A stretch of DNA of 64,000 nt from Gorillibacterium timonense (GTDB lineage Bacteria; Bacillota; Bacilli; Paenibacillales; NBRC-103111), in NCBI RefSeq assembly GCF_001457415.1, contig NZ_LN881723.1:405246-469245 (forward strand), read 5' to 3'. Positions within the stretch are counted from its first letter, which is position 1. The number at the start of each line of letters is the position of its first letter. Below, piece by piece: positions 55,880 through 64,000 of this stretch. The notes under the pieces were generated by a model. That model searched no databases. It was not told the origin of the DNA and worked only from the letters and a program-made list of their open reading frames with translations. The position numbers and the translations under genes are program-made.

Positions 55880-56236
55880 CTACCGCTTCTGCTTGTAAAA
55901 CTCATGATACAGCTTCATGAGCGCACGCTTCTCGATCCGTGACACATAGCTGCGGCTGATGCCCAGCTCCTTGGCGATCTCCCGCTGTGTCCGCTCCTCC
56001 CCGCCCGTATCGAGACCGAAGCGTCCGCGAATCACCTCTTGTTCGCGCGGGTCGAGAATATCCAGATGCGCATAGATTTTCGACTTCTCGATCTTGAGTT
56101 GTACCTTCTCGGCCACATCATCCGATTCACTTCCCAGGATATCGATCAGGGTAATTTCGTTGCCTTCCTTGTCCGTCCCGATGGGGTCATGAAGCGAGAC
56201 ATCCTTGCGCGTTTTTTTCAGGGATCGGAGGTGCAT
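55880..56236 (-). CDS. sigK: 3' half of sigK (SpoIIIC-like), interrupted by a skin-like element
   Basis: The 118-residue frame encodes only the C-terminal half of the late mother-cell sigma factor SigK: linker DVSLHDPIG, region 3, and region 4 with [15 protein letters not shown] and [24 protein letters not shown]. Intact SigK is about 235 residues, with regions 1 and 2 before the Met. Codons just upstream (EILMHLR) still match SigK, and homology stops at about 56228, as in Bacillus skin elements where spoIIIC and spoIVCB are fused by excision. A SpoIVCA-like recombinase gene lies 3.4 kb away. The N-terminal half is not in the window. Confidence 0.9.
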
Positions 56237-56240
56237 GAGG
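56222..56240. other. Probable element-sigK junction (attachment site)
   Basis: On the minus strand the sequence ACCGAAATCCTCATGCAC leads into sigK. GAAATCCTCATGCAC encodes the SigK residues EILMH, while bases further upstream do not match SigK and contain a TAG. The crossover of the Bacillus element lies in the same ENEILM codon region. The exact core cannot be set from one end. Confidence 0.65.
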
Positions 56241-56252
56241 ATTTCGGTTCTA

Positions 56253-56293: not shown

Positions 56294-56878
56294 CTATTCT
56301 AGGTGCTTCTCAACTTTCCTTACCCACTCAGGCAGCTCAGCAGATCGATAAATAACGCGTTTTTGGTCGGCTTCCATTACGATCTTACCATCTGACTCAC
56401 TATTGTCGACCAGAACCAAATGATCGATAAGATCAAGATGAGCAAGTAAATTCTCTATGGAGGTATGATGCCGCCTTATGATATCCTCAGATGGAATATG
56501 ATGACCGCCATTTTTCACCCGGGCGGCAACCCTTTCGATATTCAATCGATAGTCACCTAATCCAACATAGAACATGACAACCTCAAAGCCTTTATTCTTC
56601 GCTTCACGCATTTGGCGAATAACGTTACCGCCTGCCAAAGTCGTCTCGATTGAAAAATCACGTTTGTTACGAATACAATCTCTTACTATCTTAATTGCTT
56701 CTTTTCCGGCACTTACTTTGTAACGCTCGGGTTGTTCAGCATCAATCGCGCGAGCGAGTGCATCTGCATCAATATTTATACTAACACCAATACGATCCAC
56801 AATCAGATTGCGAATTGTACTTTTGCCACTGCCGTTATTACCAGCGAACACAAACATGGTTGCTAGTGGGCTATTCAT
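56294..56878 (-). CDS. Zeta-toxin-like P-loop kinase
   Basis: The 194-residue protein has a Walker A loop AGNNGSGKST at about 12-21, an INIDADALA motif, ETTLAGG and a late RVAARVKNGGHHIP block. This fits the zeta toxin/AAA kinase group, whose classic members phosphorylate UDP-N-acetylglucosamine and stop wall synthesis. Its start overlaps the preceding 65-residue gene by eight bases, the arrangement of toxin-antitoxin pairs. It is the element gene nearest sigK. Some family members are not toxins. Confidence 0.78.
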   Translation of the reverse strand: MNSPLATMFVFAGNNGSGKSTIRNLIVDRIGVSINIDADALARAIDAEQPERYKVSAGKEAIKIVRDCIRNKRDFSIETTLAGGNVIRQMREAKNKGFEVVMFYVGLGDYRLNIERVAARVKNGGHHIPSEDIIRRHHTSIENLLAHLDLIDHLVLVDNSESDGKIVMEADQKRVIYRSAELPEWVRKVEKHLE

Positions 56879-57068
56879 TGTAGAGCTCCAAATCCTCGAT
56901 ACGTTCTATTTTCCCATCGCTATATTCCCTAACCATATAACCTTCACTTGTTTTGTACACAATGTATGTGCCGTTAGCTTTTGCATCCAATTTCGCTCGA
57001 TCGCCTGTTAGTTTAATGAACTTATTTAAGTCCTGTATCCGGTTCACACGTATCACCGCCTGAGTCAT
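56871..57068 (-). CDS. Small partner of the zeta-like kinase, candidate antitoxin
   Basis: The 65-residue protein (MTQAVIRVNRIQDLNKF) is mixed alpha/beta with an acidic tail (RIEDLELYNE) and has no motif I recognise. Overlap with the kinase gene and order (small gene first) suggest an antitoxin. Epsilon-type antitoxins are helical, and this one does not clearly resemble them. Confidence 0.55.
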   Translation of the reverse strand: MTQAVIRVNRIQDLNKFIKLTGDRAKLDAKANGTYIVYKTSEGYMVREYSDGKIERIEDLELYNE

Positions 57069-57207: not shown

Positions 57208-59634
57208 TTATAAGTTCATTCCGTGATATCCCATTGCAGCATAACCCTTGACACGTTTCTTGTACATGGCCATAAGCATCGGTACCTGCAAGTCTACATA
57301 ATCATAAATCTGCACATCAAGTTTATTGTGATGGGTTCGATGAAGACGTCCAGCATATTGCTGAAGCGTCCCCTTCCAAGAGATGGGATGGACCAGGAAT
57401 AACGTATCCAGCCGCGCATCGTCAAAACCCTCTCCGATCAGCTTTCCGGTAGCAATAAATACTCGTTCTTCGGAATCGGATATGGAAGCGATTTGCCCCC
57501 TTAAGGCTTCCCGTTGCTTTTTCCCCATACCACCACGCAGGACAACCACATTCTTTGCAAAATGCTTCAGGCGATTTTCAAAGTATTCCACATGAGCGGT
57601 ACGTTCCGTCAAAAGGATTGGTGATCGCCCTTGATCCAACGCCTTAAGCAAGTCATCAAAAATCATGTTATTTCGTTCTTCATCTTCGACCAATAGCTTA
57701 TAGATCTCTTGAATGCCCGGTGAAAATAGGGCTTGAGGTGTACGGAAACTGGTATAGCGAGGAATCACTTTTTGCTCCAACCCCCGAGATTGAGCCTGCG
57801 ACTTCGCATCTATTGACACGCGAATCGGACCGCATTGCATGAGAACGATCGGTTGATGTCCATCCTTCCTGGATGGGGTTGCAGTTAGACCCAGAACATA
57901 TTTGGCCTTAGCTTTTTTCAACACCTGCTCAAAGCTAAAAGCCGAAACATGGTGACATTCATCTACAATGATTTGGCCGTATTCCTCTATATATTCCTTA
58001 ATGGCGCCTTTATAGTTCAAGCTTTGTATAACCGCGATATCTACGATTCCAGTTCGTTTGTCCTTGCCTCCGCCGATGATGCCAATATTCTTCTTGTCCA
58101 TTTTCAAAAAAGCACCCAGCCGTTCTCTCCACTGATCCATGAGCTCTCTTCGGTGGACGAGTACCAAGGTGTTTACTTTTCTGGAGGCAATAATAGAAGC
58201 TGCAACGACGGTCTTGCCAAACGCGGTTGTGGCCGATAAGATCCCCGTTTCATGAGTAAGCATAGATCTTGTAGCACCATCCTGCAGCATGGAAAGTGTC
58301 CCATTGAAGTTAACATCAATCGGACAACCAGGATTACGTTCGTCCGATACAACCAGTTCAATTTGATTCGTTTTCATTAAGTCCGACATTTTTCCATGAC
58401 AACCTCTAGGTATCGCAAGATAGTTGTCGTAATCGTCAAAACAGCCGATAACCCGAGGCTTGCCGTAAGTCGGCAATCTCATGGCCTGTGTCTTATAGAA
58501 ATCAGGATTTTGAAACATAGCCAAAGCTTGCAGCCTCTGAATGAATGGCGAAGGAAGCCCATTTTTTTCGATATAGATCATGTTGGAAAGAACTACTCGA
58601 ACCCGTTCGGGGAGTTGTCCCATATCTAATGATGGATTGTGCATTCCACCATCTAACCAAGGTCGCTCGCTATTTTCATCTTCTGTTTCATTCCATACGT
58701 TTGTGCCAAGTGGGGACTCCCCTTTCGTCAACTCTAAGACTAGTCTTTGAGCTTCACCCAAGCTAATTTTCCCAAGACCCGACAAGAAGCTCCACTGGTC
58801 GTGATACGGTTGAAACCGTTCATCGATAAAGACGCTGTTGCCTTCTATGCGAGGTCCCCCCTGCAGAGGCAAAGCAATCAAATTCCCAAAACCACCTTTA
58901 GGCAGCGTGTCTTGGTTTGGAAATAATCGATCGTAGGAGTCTAAAGAGAGCTGATAATGGCGCTCCCTTGTTTTGGTTAATAAGGCACTTCCTAATTTTC
59001 TGGCGAGACTCGCTTCTACCGGCTGATCAAAGAACAACCAGACATGCCCCCCGTTTCCCGAACGTGAGCGTTCAAGAGCTGAAGGAATATGATGTGCCTT
59101 ACAAGTATCCATTACAGCAAAAGCATCTTGCTTCCAATTGTGTTTGTCAAAGTCCATGGCAAGAAACCAGCAGGTTTCATCTTTTAGCATGGGATAAACA
59201 CCTACGGTACGGTTTATCTTTGCATTCAGATGGCGGGCATAAATATCATCCGATACCATTTCGAAAGCTTGATAAGAACAATTAGAGCATTTAATCCGGG
59301 GCTTATTACAAACAGGTGACCGATCATTCTTACAAACAGGTGAATATCCCGATTTCCCCGTTTTGCTTGTCCATCTAACGGGATATACATCCTCCCTCCC
59401 TCGAAAAAGAGAACGGAATAAAGCGATTTTGTCCTCTGGTCTCGATTGGAGGTGGACCTGGCCCACGGGAGGCTGTTCGTGATCAATAGTAATTTCATTA
59501 GTGGGTGTACTCTCTTTGAAATCATCAAGCTCCAAATATTTAGACAACTGATGTCTTAAATGTTGGTTTTCTAATCGAAGCGATTCAATTTCTTTCAAAG
59601 CCTGAGCAAGCCGCTGCTCCAAATTCCGATCCAT
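57208..59634 (-). CDS. TOTE-type primase-helicase fusion
   Basis: The 808-residue protein begins with a coiled coil (about 1-35), then a zinc-knuckle region with paired cysteines (CKNDRSPVC, CSNC; about 110-135). An archaeo-eukaryotic-primase-like domain follows, with LAMDFDKHNW (acidic metal site, about 175) and SRSGNGGHVWLFF (about 205). The C-terminal half is a superfamily 2 helicase: FGKTVVAASII, IIVDECHH (about 600), GLTATPSRKDG and QYAGRLHR. This architecture is that of TOTE conflict-system proteins predicted to act against foreign nucleic acid. It starts 46 bases after the recombinase stop and may share its transcript. ATG 59634 has GGGAGG. Confidence 0.83.
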   Translation of the reverse strand: MDRNLEQRLAQALKEIESLRLENQHLRHQLSKYLELDDFKESTPTNEITIDHEQPPVGQVHLQSRPEDKIALFRSLFRGREDVYPVRWTSKTGKSGYSPVCKNDRSPVCNKPRIKCSNCSYQAFEMVSDDIYARHLNAKINRTVGVYPMLKDETCWFLAMDFDKHNWKQDAFAVMDTCKAHHIPSALERSRSGNGGHVWLFFDQPVEASLARKLGSALLTKTRERHYQLSLDSYDRLFPNQDTLPKGGFGNLIALPLQGGPRIEGNSVFIDERFQPYHDQWSFLSGLGKISLGEAQRLVLELTKGESPLGTNVWNETEDENSERPWLDGGMHNPSLDMGQLPERVRVVLSNMIYIEKNGLPSPFIQRLQALAMFQNPDFYKTQAMRLPTYGKPRVIGCFDDYDNYLAIPRGCHGKMSDLMKTNQIELVVSDERNPGCPIDVNFNGTLSMLQDGATRSMLTHETGILSATTAFGKTVVAASIIASRKVNTLVLVHRRELMDQWRERLGAFLKMDKKNIGIIGGGKDKRTGIVDIAVIQSLNYKGAIKEYIEEYGQIIVDECHHVSAFSFEQVLKKAKAKYVLGLTATPSRKDGHQPIVLMQCGPIRVSIDAKSQAQSRGLEQKVIPRYTSFRTPQALFSPGIQEIYKLLVEDEERNNMIFDDLLKALDQGRSPILLTERTAHVEYFENRLKHFAKNVVVLRGGMGKKQREALRGQIASISDSEERVFIATGKLIGEGFDDARLDTLFLVHPISWKGTLQQYAGRLHRTHHNKLDVQIYDYVDLQVPMLMAMYKKRVKGYAAMGYHGMNL

Positions 59635-59680
59635 ACATCCTCCCAGGCCACACTTGGTTTGTTCCTGAATCAATCCGGTA

Positions 59681-61186
59681 TTAAAACGTAAAAATCTCAA
59701 CCGAATCCTCATACACCCGTATTTCCCGTACAACCTGCCGGATTAAATCTCGCTTCTCTTCAAACGCCAGCTCGTTTTGCCCTTTTGACAGATAATACTG
59801 AACGGCTTCCATCAGGACGTTAATGTTGTACTCATTGTTCTGCGTAGAATTCAACATATCAGACAACTCGGCTAGTTGGTTGATCAGAGCTTCCTCTTTC
59901 TGAGTTAACTCCTTCAATTCCTGCCGAATTTCCTCTTCCCCAATAAAGTCTTCACTGGCTGCAAACAATTTGATTAGTTTTTTTCGGGCGTTTTTAGTTT
60001 TTTCGATTTCCTTTTCGATCCTGGCTATTTCTCCAGTTTCAAAAGGCTCTTTTGTCTTCTCCTGTTGCAACGCCGCGGCAATTTCGTCAGGATTATTTAA
60101 CCAACTTGCGACTTGCTCCCATACTTGATCTTCGATCATCTGGGCTTTGATTCTTCTACCGCAGCCTTTAAGTTTTGCACCTGCAGTATTTTTAATATCT
60201 GTATACTCAGGAACCTTTTTGCCCCAATTATTTGATAATCGCCCGGTCATTGTATTGCCGCAGTCTCCGCATCTAAGCAAGCCACTTAATAAATATGGAT
60301 GCTTACTCTTCTGTGCCCATCTTCGACGTGATTCTGAAAGCAGTCTCTGGGCGTGTTCAAACTGGGCCTCTTCGATAATGGGGGGGCAAGGTATCAGGAT
60401 CCAATCACTCTTTGGCCTCTCCCGCATTGGAACCTTTTCCTCATCTTTTCTATGCTTGTTGCCAAGCATCCCTTCGGTATTCCAACGATTCTGATAAAAC
60501 TCGCCAATATAGGCTCGATTCATTATGATTTGTCTAACGACTTGACGATGCCATACTGGAGCTCCTCGTTTGGTAGGTACACCTTTGCTAGTTAAATATA
60601 GTGCGATACCATTTAACCCTTGAACCATTGTGTTCGGCTGAGTAAATAAATCAAAAATCAATCTTACGATTGCGGCTTCGTCTTCATTGACAAGGAATTG
60701 CTCCGACTCTTTGTCATAACTATATCCGTAGACTTGAAAATCTCTCAACACTTTACCTTGTCGCGCTTTTTCTCGTCTGCCGCGGCTCATTCGTTCGTTA
60801 ATTTTGGATTTTTCAAATTCGGCTATCGCCCCACGCATAGAATAGAACAGGTTTCCTTCCGGGGTTTTGGAATACTCTCCATTAACGAATACCAGTTCTA
60901 TTCCTCTTCTATCGAATTCATCCGTTATGATTAATTGGTTCATTAATTTCCGCGATAAACGGTCGGGATCCAGACATATGATTTTGCTTATGATCCCTTC
61001 TCTAACATCTTCCCGTAATTTGGTTAAGGCTGGTCTATCTAGAAACTCTCCAGATATCCCATCGTCCACATATTCTTTAACTTTATTCGTCTCCGCTTTC
61101 ATCCGACACTGACGAATCTGATCGTTCAGGCTGAATCCATGTTTTGCTTGTTCTTCTGTGCTCACCCTGGCGTAAATAGCGATCAT
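59681..61186 (-). CDS. Large serine recombinase, SpoIVCA-like
   Basis: The 501-residue protein begins MIAIYARVSTEEQA, with the catalytic Ser at residue 9, and has the resolvase core (DPDRLSRKLMNQLI, VNGEYSKTPEG, GAIAEFEKSKI), a recombinase domain (VWHRQVVRQIIMN), a zinc-ribbon part and a long coiled coil (about 385-450). It closely resembles SpoIVCA, which excises the skin element from sigK in the Bacillus mother cell. In the zinc ribbon the first CGDCG pair and the last Cys (GCGR) are present, but the third ligand position reads YTDIKN where SpoIVCA has YTCRKN. It lies 3.4 kb inside the element. Confidence 0.93.
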   Translation of the reverse strand: MIAIYARVSTEEQAKHGFSLNDQIRQCRMKAETNKVKEYVDDGISGEFLDRPALTKLREDVREGIISKIICLDPDRLSRKLMNQLIITDEFDRRGIELVFVNGEYSKTPEGNLFYSMRGAIAEFEKSKINERMSRGRREKARQGKVLRDFQVYGYSYDKESEQFLVNEDEAAIVRLIFDLFTQPNTMVQGLNGIALYLTSKGVPTKRGAPVWHRQVVRQIIMNRAYIGEFYQNRWNTEGMLGNKHRKDEEKVPMRERPKSDWILIPCPPIIEEAQFEHAQRLLSESRRRWAQKSKHPYLLSGLLRCGDCGNTMTGRLSNNWGKKVPEYTDIKNTAGAKLKGCGRRIKAQMIEDQVWEQVASWLNNPDEIAAALQQEKTKEPFETGEIARIEKEIEKTKNARKKLIKLFAASEDFIGEEEIRQELKELTQKEEALINQLAELSDMLNSTQNNEYNINVLMEAVQYYLSKGQNELAFEEKRDLIRQVVREIRVYEDSVEIFTF

Positions 61187-61414: not shown

Positions 61415-61558
61415 TCAATGACTGTGATAATCGGCAAGCACGAGATCCAAATAATCTTTAGGTATAGAACTACTGGTCTGCTTTGCTTCTATTTCTTTGA
61501 TCAAATAATACCCGACGAATTCTTCACCATCTCTTAAGTTTTTGATTAATGAAGTCAT
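61415..61558 (-). CDS. 47-residue ORF resembling the N-terminus of YhaM-type nucleases
   Basis: The ORF begins ATG at 61558, overlapping the pPIWI-RE stop by four bases (ATGA), and encodes MTSLIKNLRDGEEFVGYYLI, then KQTSSSIPKDYLDLVLAD and a stop. That pattern is the start of the OB-fold of YhaM-family 3'-5' exoribonucleases, which normally continue for about 300 residues with an HD domain. Nothing like the HD part follows; a terminator does. It is either a truncated gene or a small OB-like partner of the pPIWI-RE protein. Confidence 0.55.
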   Translation of the reverse strand: MTSLIKNLRDGEEFVGYYLIKEIEAKQTSSSIPKDYLDLVLADYHSH

Positions 61559-64000
61559 GATGTCACCTCTACATAATCTTCCTCCGAGTCCATCTCCACT
61601 TCCTCTTCAAACTCAGCATCGTAATCATAATCGTCTTCATTACCGGTTATATATTTCGATAATGAGCTCAGTACACGCATCGTGTACGGAAAAATGGTGT
61701 GCTTATCATAAGTCAACCCTAATCGTCTTAGATGATCCGCTAGAAGAGCAAGTTCATCCGACTCGTTTTCATTCTCTGCTCCTAAGGGAATGTATTCCAC
61801 AGCCCGTTGTTGGAGCAATAATTTGGAAGGCGATGAAAACTTGATTGCATCGTTAGCGATTCCTTTCCATGCATTCGGTCTTCCGCCCACACCGTAATAA
61901 ATACCTGCAGGGTCCTTAAAAACTCCTAATGCTTTAGTAAACCTGTTCATCTCATCATCAATAATGATTCGATATTGAGGAATGTCATCCGTCGCGTTAA
62001 TGCGGATGAACCTTAATCGTGTCTCATTGGCCAAACGCTCATTAAGATAAGGAACACGATCGCATTGTATTTTTGAATTACCGATAGCCCCCAACCAACC
62101 GTGTCTTAATGTAGCGTTGATAAGCACAATGACTTGCCCCGAACTTCGTTCTAGTTCACTGTGAATCTCAGCTGTGATAAATGCTTTAAACACTTCGCTG
62201 CTTTTATTTTCTCTTCGAGGATTATCAAGAAATTTAGATTCATCCATTTTCAGTGCCGCTTCAGACAAAGTCATCCACCTATCATTACCTAATAGCTTAA
62301 CACTGAGATCCGTGCCGTCTAATCTTGAAATGGCAGGCAGATATTTTTTTCCAGCTTTTATGACAGATATAGATAACAACGTTCCAGACGCATTGATCTT
62401 ATTGACGTTATCACTAAATAGACCATAATCGTTGAAAAGGTCTACTACAGCATTCAGAATGCGGGATAAATCTCCTTTCTCATCACCTGTTAGTGGGTGA
62501 ATAAATTGCGATAGTCGCCCTGTCATCTTCAATCCTTCCCGAATAGCTTTCTTAGGGTCGGCCCCCTCTCTCCACTTACTCTTCTCTTCAATTTCTACAA
62601 GAGCTAATACCGAGTGGTTAGGTTGTTCAACTTTGGAAAGTTGCTTCACAATTTGATTAATACGCTTTTCTTGAGCAATCGAGTTATCCTTATATCTATC
62701 AATCTCTAATTCCGATGTTATGATGTCTGGATTACAATGGACAAGTTCAACAATGAACTCTTTATCCGAATTTAATCTGAAGACGGAGTCAGAAATCTCA
62801 TCAAGAATAGTTACGTTATCAATTGACTTTTGCGCTGTAGATAGTTCTTTTATTACTGCTTCAAACATCTCGGTAGAACTATAAATCTCGATAGTTATTC
62901 GCTCTTCCTTAGGAACAACGATTGGAAAGCGATTGTCATTCATACCTCTAAGAGAAATATCAGGAATAAGTTGAAGTTCTCTTGCACCATAATTCGTTAA
63001 GAACCCTTTGGCCAAGTTATACAAACCGCTTTTCTCTGGAAGGCCGATTCCCGCTTTCACACTATTTCCAGTAAATAGATTGTTGTTCACGACATAAGCC
63101 GTGATTTCTCCATCCCCATCGGAATAGACCTTGGGATTCACAAGCAACGAATCTGCCTCGAAAGACTCCCCATTCAGCACATCCCAATACAATTCGTCTA
63201 ATGCGCTCTCCCATGATGTATATGAAGAGTTGCGAGGACGTCTTTCAAATTTCAATTGGGAAAATGAACGATCTAAGCTCGTAACATATGGATTTTGAAC
63301 AGATACCAAAACCGAACAGTAATGCCCAGACCTCATGTAGCACTTGCCTTCTTTGATTTGTACATCGCTCAAATACCTTCTTGTCCCCAAGGAAACCGTT
63401 AGTATGGCTCGATCAGCATCTCCCCCACGAGTCTTCAATGCAAATCGAATGACATAAGAAAATGGATCATGACGATGAGATTTTCGAATCGGATTAGAAA
63501 TGCATTCGTGTTTATCATTAAAGATAACATGATAGAATTTCAGCTCTTCACGTAGCTCATTACCTAAATCAAGAAACTTTGATTCCTGGCAGAACTTGAC
63601 TGCTGCCATGCCGGGAACCCACTGGTAGTTATCAACGAATTCGTGAACATCACCAAACGTAGAAGAAGCCCAAACAAGCTCCGAATCTCTTACGTCTTGC
63701 GGTAAATCAGGAATCGAATAATCCTTTAAATGTGCTAGCCATCCAAGCGTCAAATGTTTTATATACGATGAATGAATAGGTTTTGTGGAAACTAGCCAAG
63801 GCTGATCATCGAGCAACACCTTGTTGTTTGAACATACGCTTACGATTTCAGGAAAAATACTTTTAAGCTTCTTTCCTAGAGGTTCTACTTTAAATGCAAG
63901 CTTAAAGCGATCTGTACGCTCTCTATTAAAGAAGTTTCTCCAGCTCTCCGGCATTTTCATATAATAGATAGTTTCGTTATAAAACAGCGTTTCATCAATC
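61555..64000 (-). CDS. pPIWI-RE family protein, 5' end cut by the window edge
   Basis: The frame runs open past the ATG at 63960 to the right edge (preceding residues read DETLFYNETIYYMKMP), so the true start is outside. The visible 815 residues fit the pPIWI-RE (DUF3962 plus RNase H/PIWI-like) family: an N-terminal DUF3962-type start (MPESWRNFF), a C-terminal fold with VIVLINATLRHGW, the Arg block LRFIRINATDD, GIYYGVGGRP and the Glu block RAVEYIPL, and the closing LADHLRRLG. It ends in a very acidic tail. These proteins are argonaute-like and occur with a DinG-type helicase and a nuclease; those partners are not in view. Recognition is from memory. Confidence 0.75.
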   Translation of the reverse strand, partial: IDETLFYNETIYYMKMPESWRNFFNRERTDRFKLAFKVEPLGKKLKSIFPEIVSVCSNNKVLLDDQPWLVSTKPIHSSYIKHLTLGWLAHLKDYSIPDLPQDVRDSELVWASSTFGDVHEFVDNYQWVPGMAAVKFCQESKFLDLGNELREELKFYHVIFNDKHECISNPIRKSHRHDPFSYVIRFALKTRGGDADRAILTVSLGTRRYLSDVQIKEGKCYMRSGHYCSVLVSVQNPYVTSLDRSFSQLKFERRPRNSSYTSWESALDELYWDVLNGESFEADSLLVNPKVYSDGDGEITAYVVNNNLFTGNSVKAGIGLPEKSGLYNLAKGFLTNYGARELQLIPDISLRGMNDNRFPIVVPKEERITIEIYSSTEMFEAVIKELSTAQKSIDNVTILDEISDSVFRLNSDKEFIVELVHCNPDIITSELEIDRYKDNSIAQEKRINQIVKQLSKVEQPNHSVLALVEIEEKSKWREGADPKKAIREGLKMTGRLSQFIHPLTGDEKGDLSRILNAVVDLFNDYGLFSDNVNKINASGTLLSISVIKAGKKYLPAISRLDGTDLSVKLLGNDRWMTLSEAALKMDESKFLDNPRRENKSSEVFKAFITAEIHSELERSSGQVIVLINATLRHGWLGAIGNSKIQCDRVPYLNERLANETRLRFIRINATDDIPQYRIIIDDEMNRFTKALGVFKDPAGIYYGVGGRPNAWKGIANDAIKFSSPSKLLLQQRAVEYIPLGAENENESDELALLADHLRRLGLTYDKHTIFPYTMRVLSSLSKYITGNEDDYDYDAEFEEEVEMDSEEDYVEVTS

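Follow-up and report, generated by a model that had tools for sequence, protein, structure and literature searches.

We analysed a window of 64,000 nucleotides (the term denotes the whole stretch, at its full length) from the genome of Gorillibacterium timonense (G000:C6:405246-469245, contig NZ_LN881723.1), and read contig C6 beyond the window end. The window closes with a pPIWI-RE gene, which stands in a row with the two other genes of the pPIWI-RE trio, a DinG-type helicase gene and a nuclease (REase) gene, between the two halves of a split sigK gene. Coordinates prefixed with C6 are contig positions and all others are window positions (position 1 being the window's first letter). The features that carry the analysis are as follows:

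55880..56236, minus strand: sigK 3' half (SigK residues ~115 to 233; SigK models score best)
56238..56245, minus strand: 8-bp core GAAATCCT at the sigK 3'-half end of the element (partner core at C6:513985-513992)
59681..61186, minus strand: large serine recombinase of the SpoIVCA (skin) type, 501 amino acids (aa), with resolvase, recombinase and zinc-ribbon domains
61555..64000, minus strand: pPIWI-RE gene, identified by domain profiles, its 5' part cut by the window edge (full open reading frame (ORF) C6:466800-469274, window equivalent 61555-64029)
63995..64000, minus strand: 3' end of the PprDinG helicase gene (full gene C6:469240-472353, 1037 aa; pPIWI_RE_Z and PprDinG matches)
C6:472350-473417, minus strand: PprRE nuclease (REase) gene upstream of DinG, 355 aa (PF18154 and PprRE matches)
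C6:513975-514355: sigK 5' half (genome-search match at C6:513975-514307)

Comparisons were made with 104 genomes of the same family, 398 genomes of Bacilli, 16 named relatives' loci (15 from Paenibacillus and one from Brevibacillus) and 14 further Bacilli loci, one of which (L095) appears to come from the same Brevibacillus genome as L069. G-labels designate genomes and L-labels designate relatives' loci.

The pPIWI-RE trio

The complete pPIWI-RE ORF, of 824 aa, has its start 29 bases beyond the window end. It matches the pPIWI_RE_X (PF13111, 196 bits, Pfam cut-off 30.5), MID_pPIWI_RE (PF18157, 73.9 bits, cut-off 26.6) and RNaseH_pPIWI_RE (PF13032, 112.8 bits, cut-off 25) profiles, as well as the PADLOC PprPIWI model (348 bits). 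The minus-strand ORF ending at 61555 is a genuine pPIWI-RE gene, with X, MID and RNase H domains all above Pfam cut-offs. A preliminary description of the window had named this family and proposed a profile search, which upholds the assignment. The same description considered the usual helicase and nuclease to be missing, an artefact of the window edge, which cuts the locus. It had allowed that both might lie upstream beyond the edge, and this is where we found them, directly adjoining pPIWI-RE, a result that it had itself named as telling against a lone gene.

The 1037-aa helicase matches pPIWI_RE_Z (77.3 bits) and PprDinG (393 bits) and carries GAGKST and DEAD motifs, while the 355-aa nuclease matches pPIWI_RE_REase (PF18154, 65.2 bits) and PprRE and shows a D...DVK motif at its end (all motifs read by eye). 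Each member of the trio therefore has domain hits above cut-off, in the case of the helicase through pPIWI_RE_Z and the PprDinG model. DinG overlaps pPIWI-RE by 35 bases and REase overlaps DinG by 4 bases. The gene order RE-DinG-pPIWI, in one orientation and with both partners directly upstream of pPIWI-RE, is the usual one: the published three-gene system (Burroughs, Iyer and Aravind 2013, PMC3702460) comprises the same overlapping or closely spaced genes in the same order, and its R and E signature is found here too. This order is conserved in all 16 named relatives' loci and in 13 of the 14 other Bacilli loci, the last of which ends at a contig edge. The closest copies are those of P. sp. 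RC67 (95-97% identical) and MAHUQ-63 (92-96%), both at sites unlinked to sigK. Searches with the pPIWI-RE sequence returned no relative of solved structure at E up to 0.01 and no plasmid-borne relative; with the distant P. thalictri copy as query, four cyanobacterial plasmids were matched. We are thus dealing with a standard pPIWI-RE trio in an unusual place, and with a conserved extension.

A split sigK gene around the trio

Both sigK halves carry GAAATCCT, and joining them there yields a single 233-aa SigK; the two cores are 52,502 bp apart. A genome search for sigK gave three matches, namely the 5' half (residues 1-118), the 3' half (109-233) and a 49%-identical sigE-like gene, with no intact sigK elsewhere in the genome. 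In the four relatives whose motif was read, no interruption occurs at the corresponding codon. The element-side arms, AATGTC and GACATT, are inverted copies of each other, one per side, and such arms recur at sigK genes split at the same site (5/5 on the 5' side, one reading AAGGTC, and 4/6 on the 3' side). Comparing gene order around sigK with that in six relatives whose sigK is intact was uninformative, as flanking genes differ.

In G084 (P. tyrfis) and G010, recombinases sharing 91% identity with this one stand at distances of 20 and 22 bp from the sigK 3' half, and those near sigK pieces in G065, G007 and G001 share 52-59% identity with it, so that orthologues (52-91% identity) lie beside codon-115 sigK splits in five genomes. 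Similarly, 18 of the 25 best Bacilli recombinase matches, a set that includes the gene's own copy, have a sigK match within 1.5 kb (three of these 18 being nearly full-length genes of 53-55% identity rather than halves). The SpoIVCA-type label rests on domains and on this sigK linkage among relatives, B. subtilis SpoIVCA itself being outside the comparison. Gene content and order, the split sigK, the matching cores and the restored reading frame can be read directly from the contig. A split sigK, a shared core, a restored frame and an internal SpoIVCA-type recombinase therefore place the trio in a skin-like element. We consider it probable that a complete pPIWI-RE operon (REase, DinG helicase, pPIWI-RE) resides in a 52.5-kb, skin-like sigK-intervening element with mainly defence genes as cargo. 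By analogy with skin, the 52.5-kb block must probably be excised before sporulation completes; we infer both this excision and the defence function.

In B. subtilis, the skin element, which is prophage-like and encodes SpoIVCA, interrupts sigK with a short core (PMC10745906, PMC13141910). The element described here likewise combines an interrupted sigK, a large serine recombinase and a short core, but its core has 8 bases instead of 5 and it carries mostly defence genes; no phage structural gene was recognised in the element's ORF lists or among scanned proteins (the PHROGs scan covered five element proteins). Island IV of B. cereus biovar anthracis is another parallel, as this 22-kb insertion at sigK base 195 lacks phage genes, carries one type I restriction system and is excised in sporulation (PMC10745906). 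Its recombinase is 31% identical to SpoIVCA, its insertion site is close to the codon-63 class that we observed in other genomes, and the accessible part of that report names neither pPIWI-RE nor BREX. Finally, the gin element of B. cereus ATCC10987, also of non-phage type, interrupts a sporulation gene and carries restriction-modification genes (PMC5595907), although the gene concerned is gerE, three serine recombinases are present and the remaining cargo differs.

With no intact sigK elsewhere in the genome, and with a transposase gene and a truncated YhaM-like gene (see below) as signs of cargo turnover, the island could conceivably have decayed and merely destroyed sigK, with no regulated excision and no sigma-K made any more. 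Such decay would be expected to erode the frame, the halves, the recombinase and the arms. Instead, joining at the shared core restores the frame exactly, both halves remain open with 86-95% identity to intact copies, the recombinase has its full length, and the element-side arms match those of related elements. We therefore regard simple destruction of sigK as unlikely and favour an element that can still be excised.

A 95-aa ORF (C6:513606-513893) lies just inside the sigK 5' half and recurs at that place in G010 and G084; relatives are found near pPIWI-RE in L077 and L078, the latter with the other sigK site. It has no family match over cut-off and is a possible directionality factor.

The association with sigK extends to other genomes. 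pPIWI-RE is present in 11 of the 104 family genomes and in 15 of the 398 Bacilli, the 11 family genomes and eight more giving 19 distinct pPIWI-RE genomes. In five of these 19 (G000, G084, G078, P. sediminis and P. oryzae) the gene lies between or beside interrupted sigK pieces on one contig, only the sigK 5' piece being on the pPIWI-RE contig in P. oryzae. P. filicis carries it between sigK fragments, and three further genomes (P. naphthalenovorans, P. validus and MSJ-34) have a split sigK on contigs other than that of pPIWI-RE. Among the matches listed, sigK is interrupted in 5/11 pPIWI-RE-positive versus 9/93 negative family genomes (Fisher p = 0.006), and in 4/5 genomes with a second pPIWI-RE clade versus 10/99 others (Fisher p = 0.001). 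Classes were assigned by hand, with six unclear genomes (G025, G026, G039, G040, G049 and G080) counted as not interrupted, and the p values are only a guide, given the relatedness of the genomes and the choice of the second clade after inspection of the data.

Extension of the trio and proposed mode of action

Two further features lie immediately downstream of pPIWI-RE:

61415..61558, minus strand: 47-residue ORF, truncated start of a YhaM-like 3'-5' exoribonuclease gene, its ATG overlapping the pPIWI-RE stop codon
61338..61370, minus strand: terminator-like hairpin with a 15-pair stem and a T-rich tail (one found, against a mean of 0.4 in shuffles)

Over 43 residues, the 47-residue ORF shares 93% identity (E = 4e-23) with the beginning of the YhaM-like gene located after pPIWI-RE in P. 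arenilitoris. Read downstream from pPIWI-RE, the DNA resembles the intact operon as far as ~61429 and, from ~61371, the flank of the recombinase in a related element, so that a junction has cut this fourth gene; the hairpin falls where the recombinase-side similarity begins. The small ORF and the terminator of the preliminary description are thus both real, but the former is a truncated YhaM-like gene and not a lone small one. An intact YhaM-like gene is present in the same element (C6:509453-510412; 253.5 bits with the NCBIfam YhaM model, below its cut-off of 460), and a genome search at E up to 1e-5 returned this gene, the remnant and no other match.

In the second pPIWI-RE clade, which is ~31% identical to the pPIWI-RE studied here, a YhaM-like gene directly follows pPIWI-RE in all eight named loci and in G078, and in each locus is itself followed by WYL, AddB-like and AddA-like genes (several G078 copies being in pieces). 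Within the present clade, the YhaM-like gene directly follows pPIWI-RE in L065, L067 and L068, comes after two inserted genes in L064 and L066, and is reduced to a remnant here and in L070. No YhaM-like gene was found in two Brevibacillus-type loci (L069/L095 and L096, which shares the genus label of L095), where WYL, AddB-like and AddA-like genes adjoin pPIWI-RE instead. The element studied here carries WYL, AddB-like and AddA-like genes 18-28 kb from the trio, and a genome search with the AddA-like protein (E up to 1e-20) returned the island copy only. Paenibacillus relatives therefore add to the published three-gene system YhaM-like, WYL and AddAB-like genes, of which the accessible part of PMC3702460 makes no mention. 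P. oryzae (L075) has nearly the same accessory genes as our element (WYL 96%, vWA 92%, Fic 98% and YhaM-like 93% identical) and has its own trio between the PH and YhaM-like genes, where none is found here. The simplest reading of this comparison would be that one trio was lost and another gained in G. timonense.

Other genes also accompany the trio. The two genes inserted before the YhaM-like gene in L064 (12488-16473) and L066 (12488-16461) form a Gabija-like pair (named by eye), made up of an ATP-binding protein with SGKSAALQ and a helicase-like protein. An McrBC-like pair adjoins the trio in L066:1019-4766, L067:1023-4766, L065:1962-5694 and G078:C1:4225706-4229394, as well as here, the McrC-like protein being 92% identical to those of L066 and L067. 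As this pair travels with the trio in several relatives, the five genes may move as one cassette.

We then considered the PIWI domain itself. In PsPIWI-RE of Pseudomonas stutzeri, which cuts DNA using an RNA guide, D525 and D610 are required, whereas R639 and E718 are not (PMC10991935). This protein belongs to the same family and shares the conserved R and E: in an alignment of the C-terminal parts of 20 pPIWI-RE proteins, R676 and E745 are kept in 20/20. The candidate equivalents of the two aspartates are S555 and N638 here, at columns holding Asp in 4/20 and 9/20 proteins, respectively; column placement is uncertain, as PsPIWI-RE lies outside the alignment and the columns rest on spacing and on relatives. 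Serine or threonine at the first column, and asparagine at the second, are common to all four members of this clade in the alignment. It is likely, though unproven, that this pPIWI-RE has lost catalysis, and it may bind guides without cutting.

The apparent loss of these residues, together with the YhaM-like remnant beside the trio, could be taken to mean that the trio is an inactive, decaying passenger whose fourth gene is already broken. We find this improbable. All three ORFs of the trio are intact, and two other genomes carry copies with 92-97% identity to them. The S/T and N replacements, being shared by four clade members, are therefore not local decay, and catalytic residues are retained only in a subset of pPIWI-RE proteins (Burroughs et al., PMC3702460).

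Several observations weigh against a complete and functional operon in a skin-like element. The recombinase and the sigK 3' half are 3.4 kb apart, versus 20-22 bp in two close relatives; cargo therefore lies between the two, and for the same reason the gene's own copy scored as a miss in the sigK-linkage count. A crude search found no simple sigma-E-like pattern upstream of the recombinase here, and one of eight relatives had a match. pPIWI-RE is unlinked to sigK in 10 of the 19 genomes, and the YhaM-like gene adjoining the trio is truncated. None of the 20 aligned proteins has Asp in both candidate columns, a count that shares the uncertainty of the columns in an alignment without PsPIWI-RE. 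Finally, an AlphaFold model of pPIWI-RE (16 sequences) has a mean predicted local distance difference test (pLDDT) score of 39.6, too poor to judge the PIWI fold or active site.

If the trio works as its domains suggest, pPIWI-RE would bind a short guide via its MID pocket and locate matching invading DNA, which the DinG-type helicase would unwind and the separate PD-(D/E)XK nuclease would cut. This last role is proposed for the nuclease because the catalytic aspartates are apparently missing from the PIWI domain; if confirmed, the replaced positions predict cutting by a separate nuclease in this clade. In relatives, the YhaM-like exoribonuclease, the WYL regulator and the AddAB-like helicase-nuclease may trim guides or degrade cut DNA; the trio-adjacent YhaM-like gene is broken here, yet the element has an intact YhaM-like gene, as well as WYL and AddAB-like genes, elsewhere. 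By analogy with skin, sigK would stay split by the island in vegetative cells. In the mother cell of a sporulating culture the SpoIVCA-type recombinase would excise the island, so that sigK would be rejoined and sigma-K made, and the forespore would retain the island and its defence.

More tentatively, and with slightly more doubt than confidence, we suggest that sigK-intervening elements of Paenibacillus and its kin form a class of mobile defence islands in which an extended pPIWI-RE system (REase, DinG, pPIWI-RE, YhaM-like, WYL and AddAB-like) is recurrent cargo. The YhaM-like and AddAB-like proteins would be working parts of a guide-directed restriction pathway longer than the three-gene one; the germline would retain the island, and the dying mother cell would lose it by excision. 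If so, stacked defence systems have a sporulation gene as their landing site, anti-phage islands are tied to a developmental excision switch, which is a place to look for new systems, and the conserved extra genes yield a testable prediction of what trims pPIWI-RE guides and what degrades marked DNA. Already published are sigK insertions that lack phage genes and bear a single type I restriction system (PMC10745906), and a non-phage gerE element with restriction genes (PMC5595907). A literature search of titles and abstract openings, with most subscription papers and all preprints outside its scope, found no description of pPIWI-RE in a sigK element or of the extended operon.

Related sigK elements and other cargo

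Many family genomes (G017, G048, G053 and others) contain an intact sigK plus extra 3' fragments (residues ~61-233), several of them on the same contig and strand as the intact gene, tens of kb downstream. All seven fragment starts that were read have the junction motif of codon-63 splits, TGTTCACA or TGTTCATA adjacent to codon 63. At least 49 of the 104 genomes have at least three strong sigK-like matches (hand count among the matches listed, one usually being sigE, with split genes included). The pattern resembles repeated rounds of site-specific exchange of cassettes at sigK; in the stretches read, the cargo is metabolic.

Brevibacillus panacihumi (G109:C1:802613-862593) has a codon-63 split sigK and a recombinase 95% identical to that of the G078 element from the Paenibacillus family, which suggests recent transfer across genera. 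In G087 (C1:1750296-1781767) the two sigK pieces are on opposite strands, so that inversion, not excision, would rejoin the gene. Three consecutive genes stand beside several sigK elements (L026:2678-6224, L052:4121-7703 and L058:1274-5080). The third is a tyrosine-recombinase relative, only one gene of this type being found in the present element (C6:512696-513550), and from position only we guess that the first two are also recombinases.

Three further genes lie between the sigK 3' half and the recombinase:

56294..56878, minus strand: zeta-toxin-like P-loop kinase, 194 aa, identified by domain scan
56871..57068, minus strand: small ORF, 65 aa, with no family match over cut-off
57208..59733, minus strand: TOTE-type primase (AEP) and SF2 helicase, 841 aa (PF22548, 323 bits, and helicase domains)

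The TOTE assignment rests on its AEP-TOTE primase and SF2 helicase domains. This gene is real and ends 1.8 kb from pPIWI-RE, and stand-alone pPIWI-RE genes occur in several Bacillus species (PMC3702460), but a stand-alone or partner-swapped pPIWI-RE working with TOTE is hardly credible here, as pPIWI-RE forms a run of overlapping genes with intact DinG and REase and tblastn found no TOTE gene in any of the 16 named relatives' loci, all of which bear the trio. We accordingly rejected both a stand-alone pPIWI-RE and TOTE as a substitute helicase, the latter a suggestion of the preliminary description for which we saw no sign, TOTE being separated from the trio by the recombinase.

Elsewhere, the element encodes the McrBC-like pair (PDC-M26A and DUF2357/PDDEXK_7) and all six type-3 BREX components, namely BrxF, BrxC, PglXI, PglZ, BrxA and a BrxH/DrmD-type helicase. 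The published type-3 set has BrxF, BrxC, PglXI/BrxXI, PglZ, BrxA and a BrxHII helicase (PMC12839542); here five components were named directly, while the helicase scored best as DrmD (1248.6 bits), with matches to the BrxHI and BrxHII models too. The remaining genes identified are the AddAB-like pair, vWA, WYL, Fic (SoFic model), Drt3a and Drt3b (DRT3), GIY-YIG, the YhaM-like gene, an IS110-type transposase (by eye), two PH-type proteins (the second unscanned) and the tyrosine recombinase. In total, genes with defence-model matches make up 55% of the element (hand assignment, 33 ORFs). Relatives of the zeta-like kinase are found elsewhere near pPIWI-RE trios or near this recombinase, and the P. 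tyrfis element also carries a type I restriction system.

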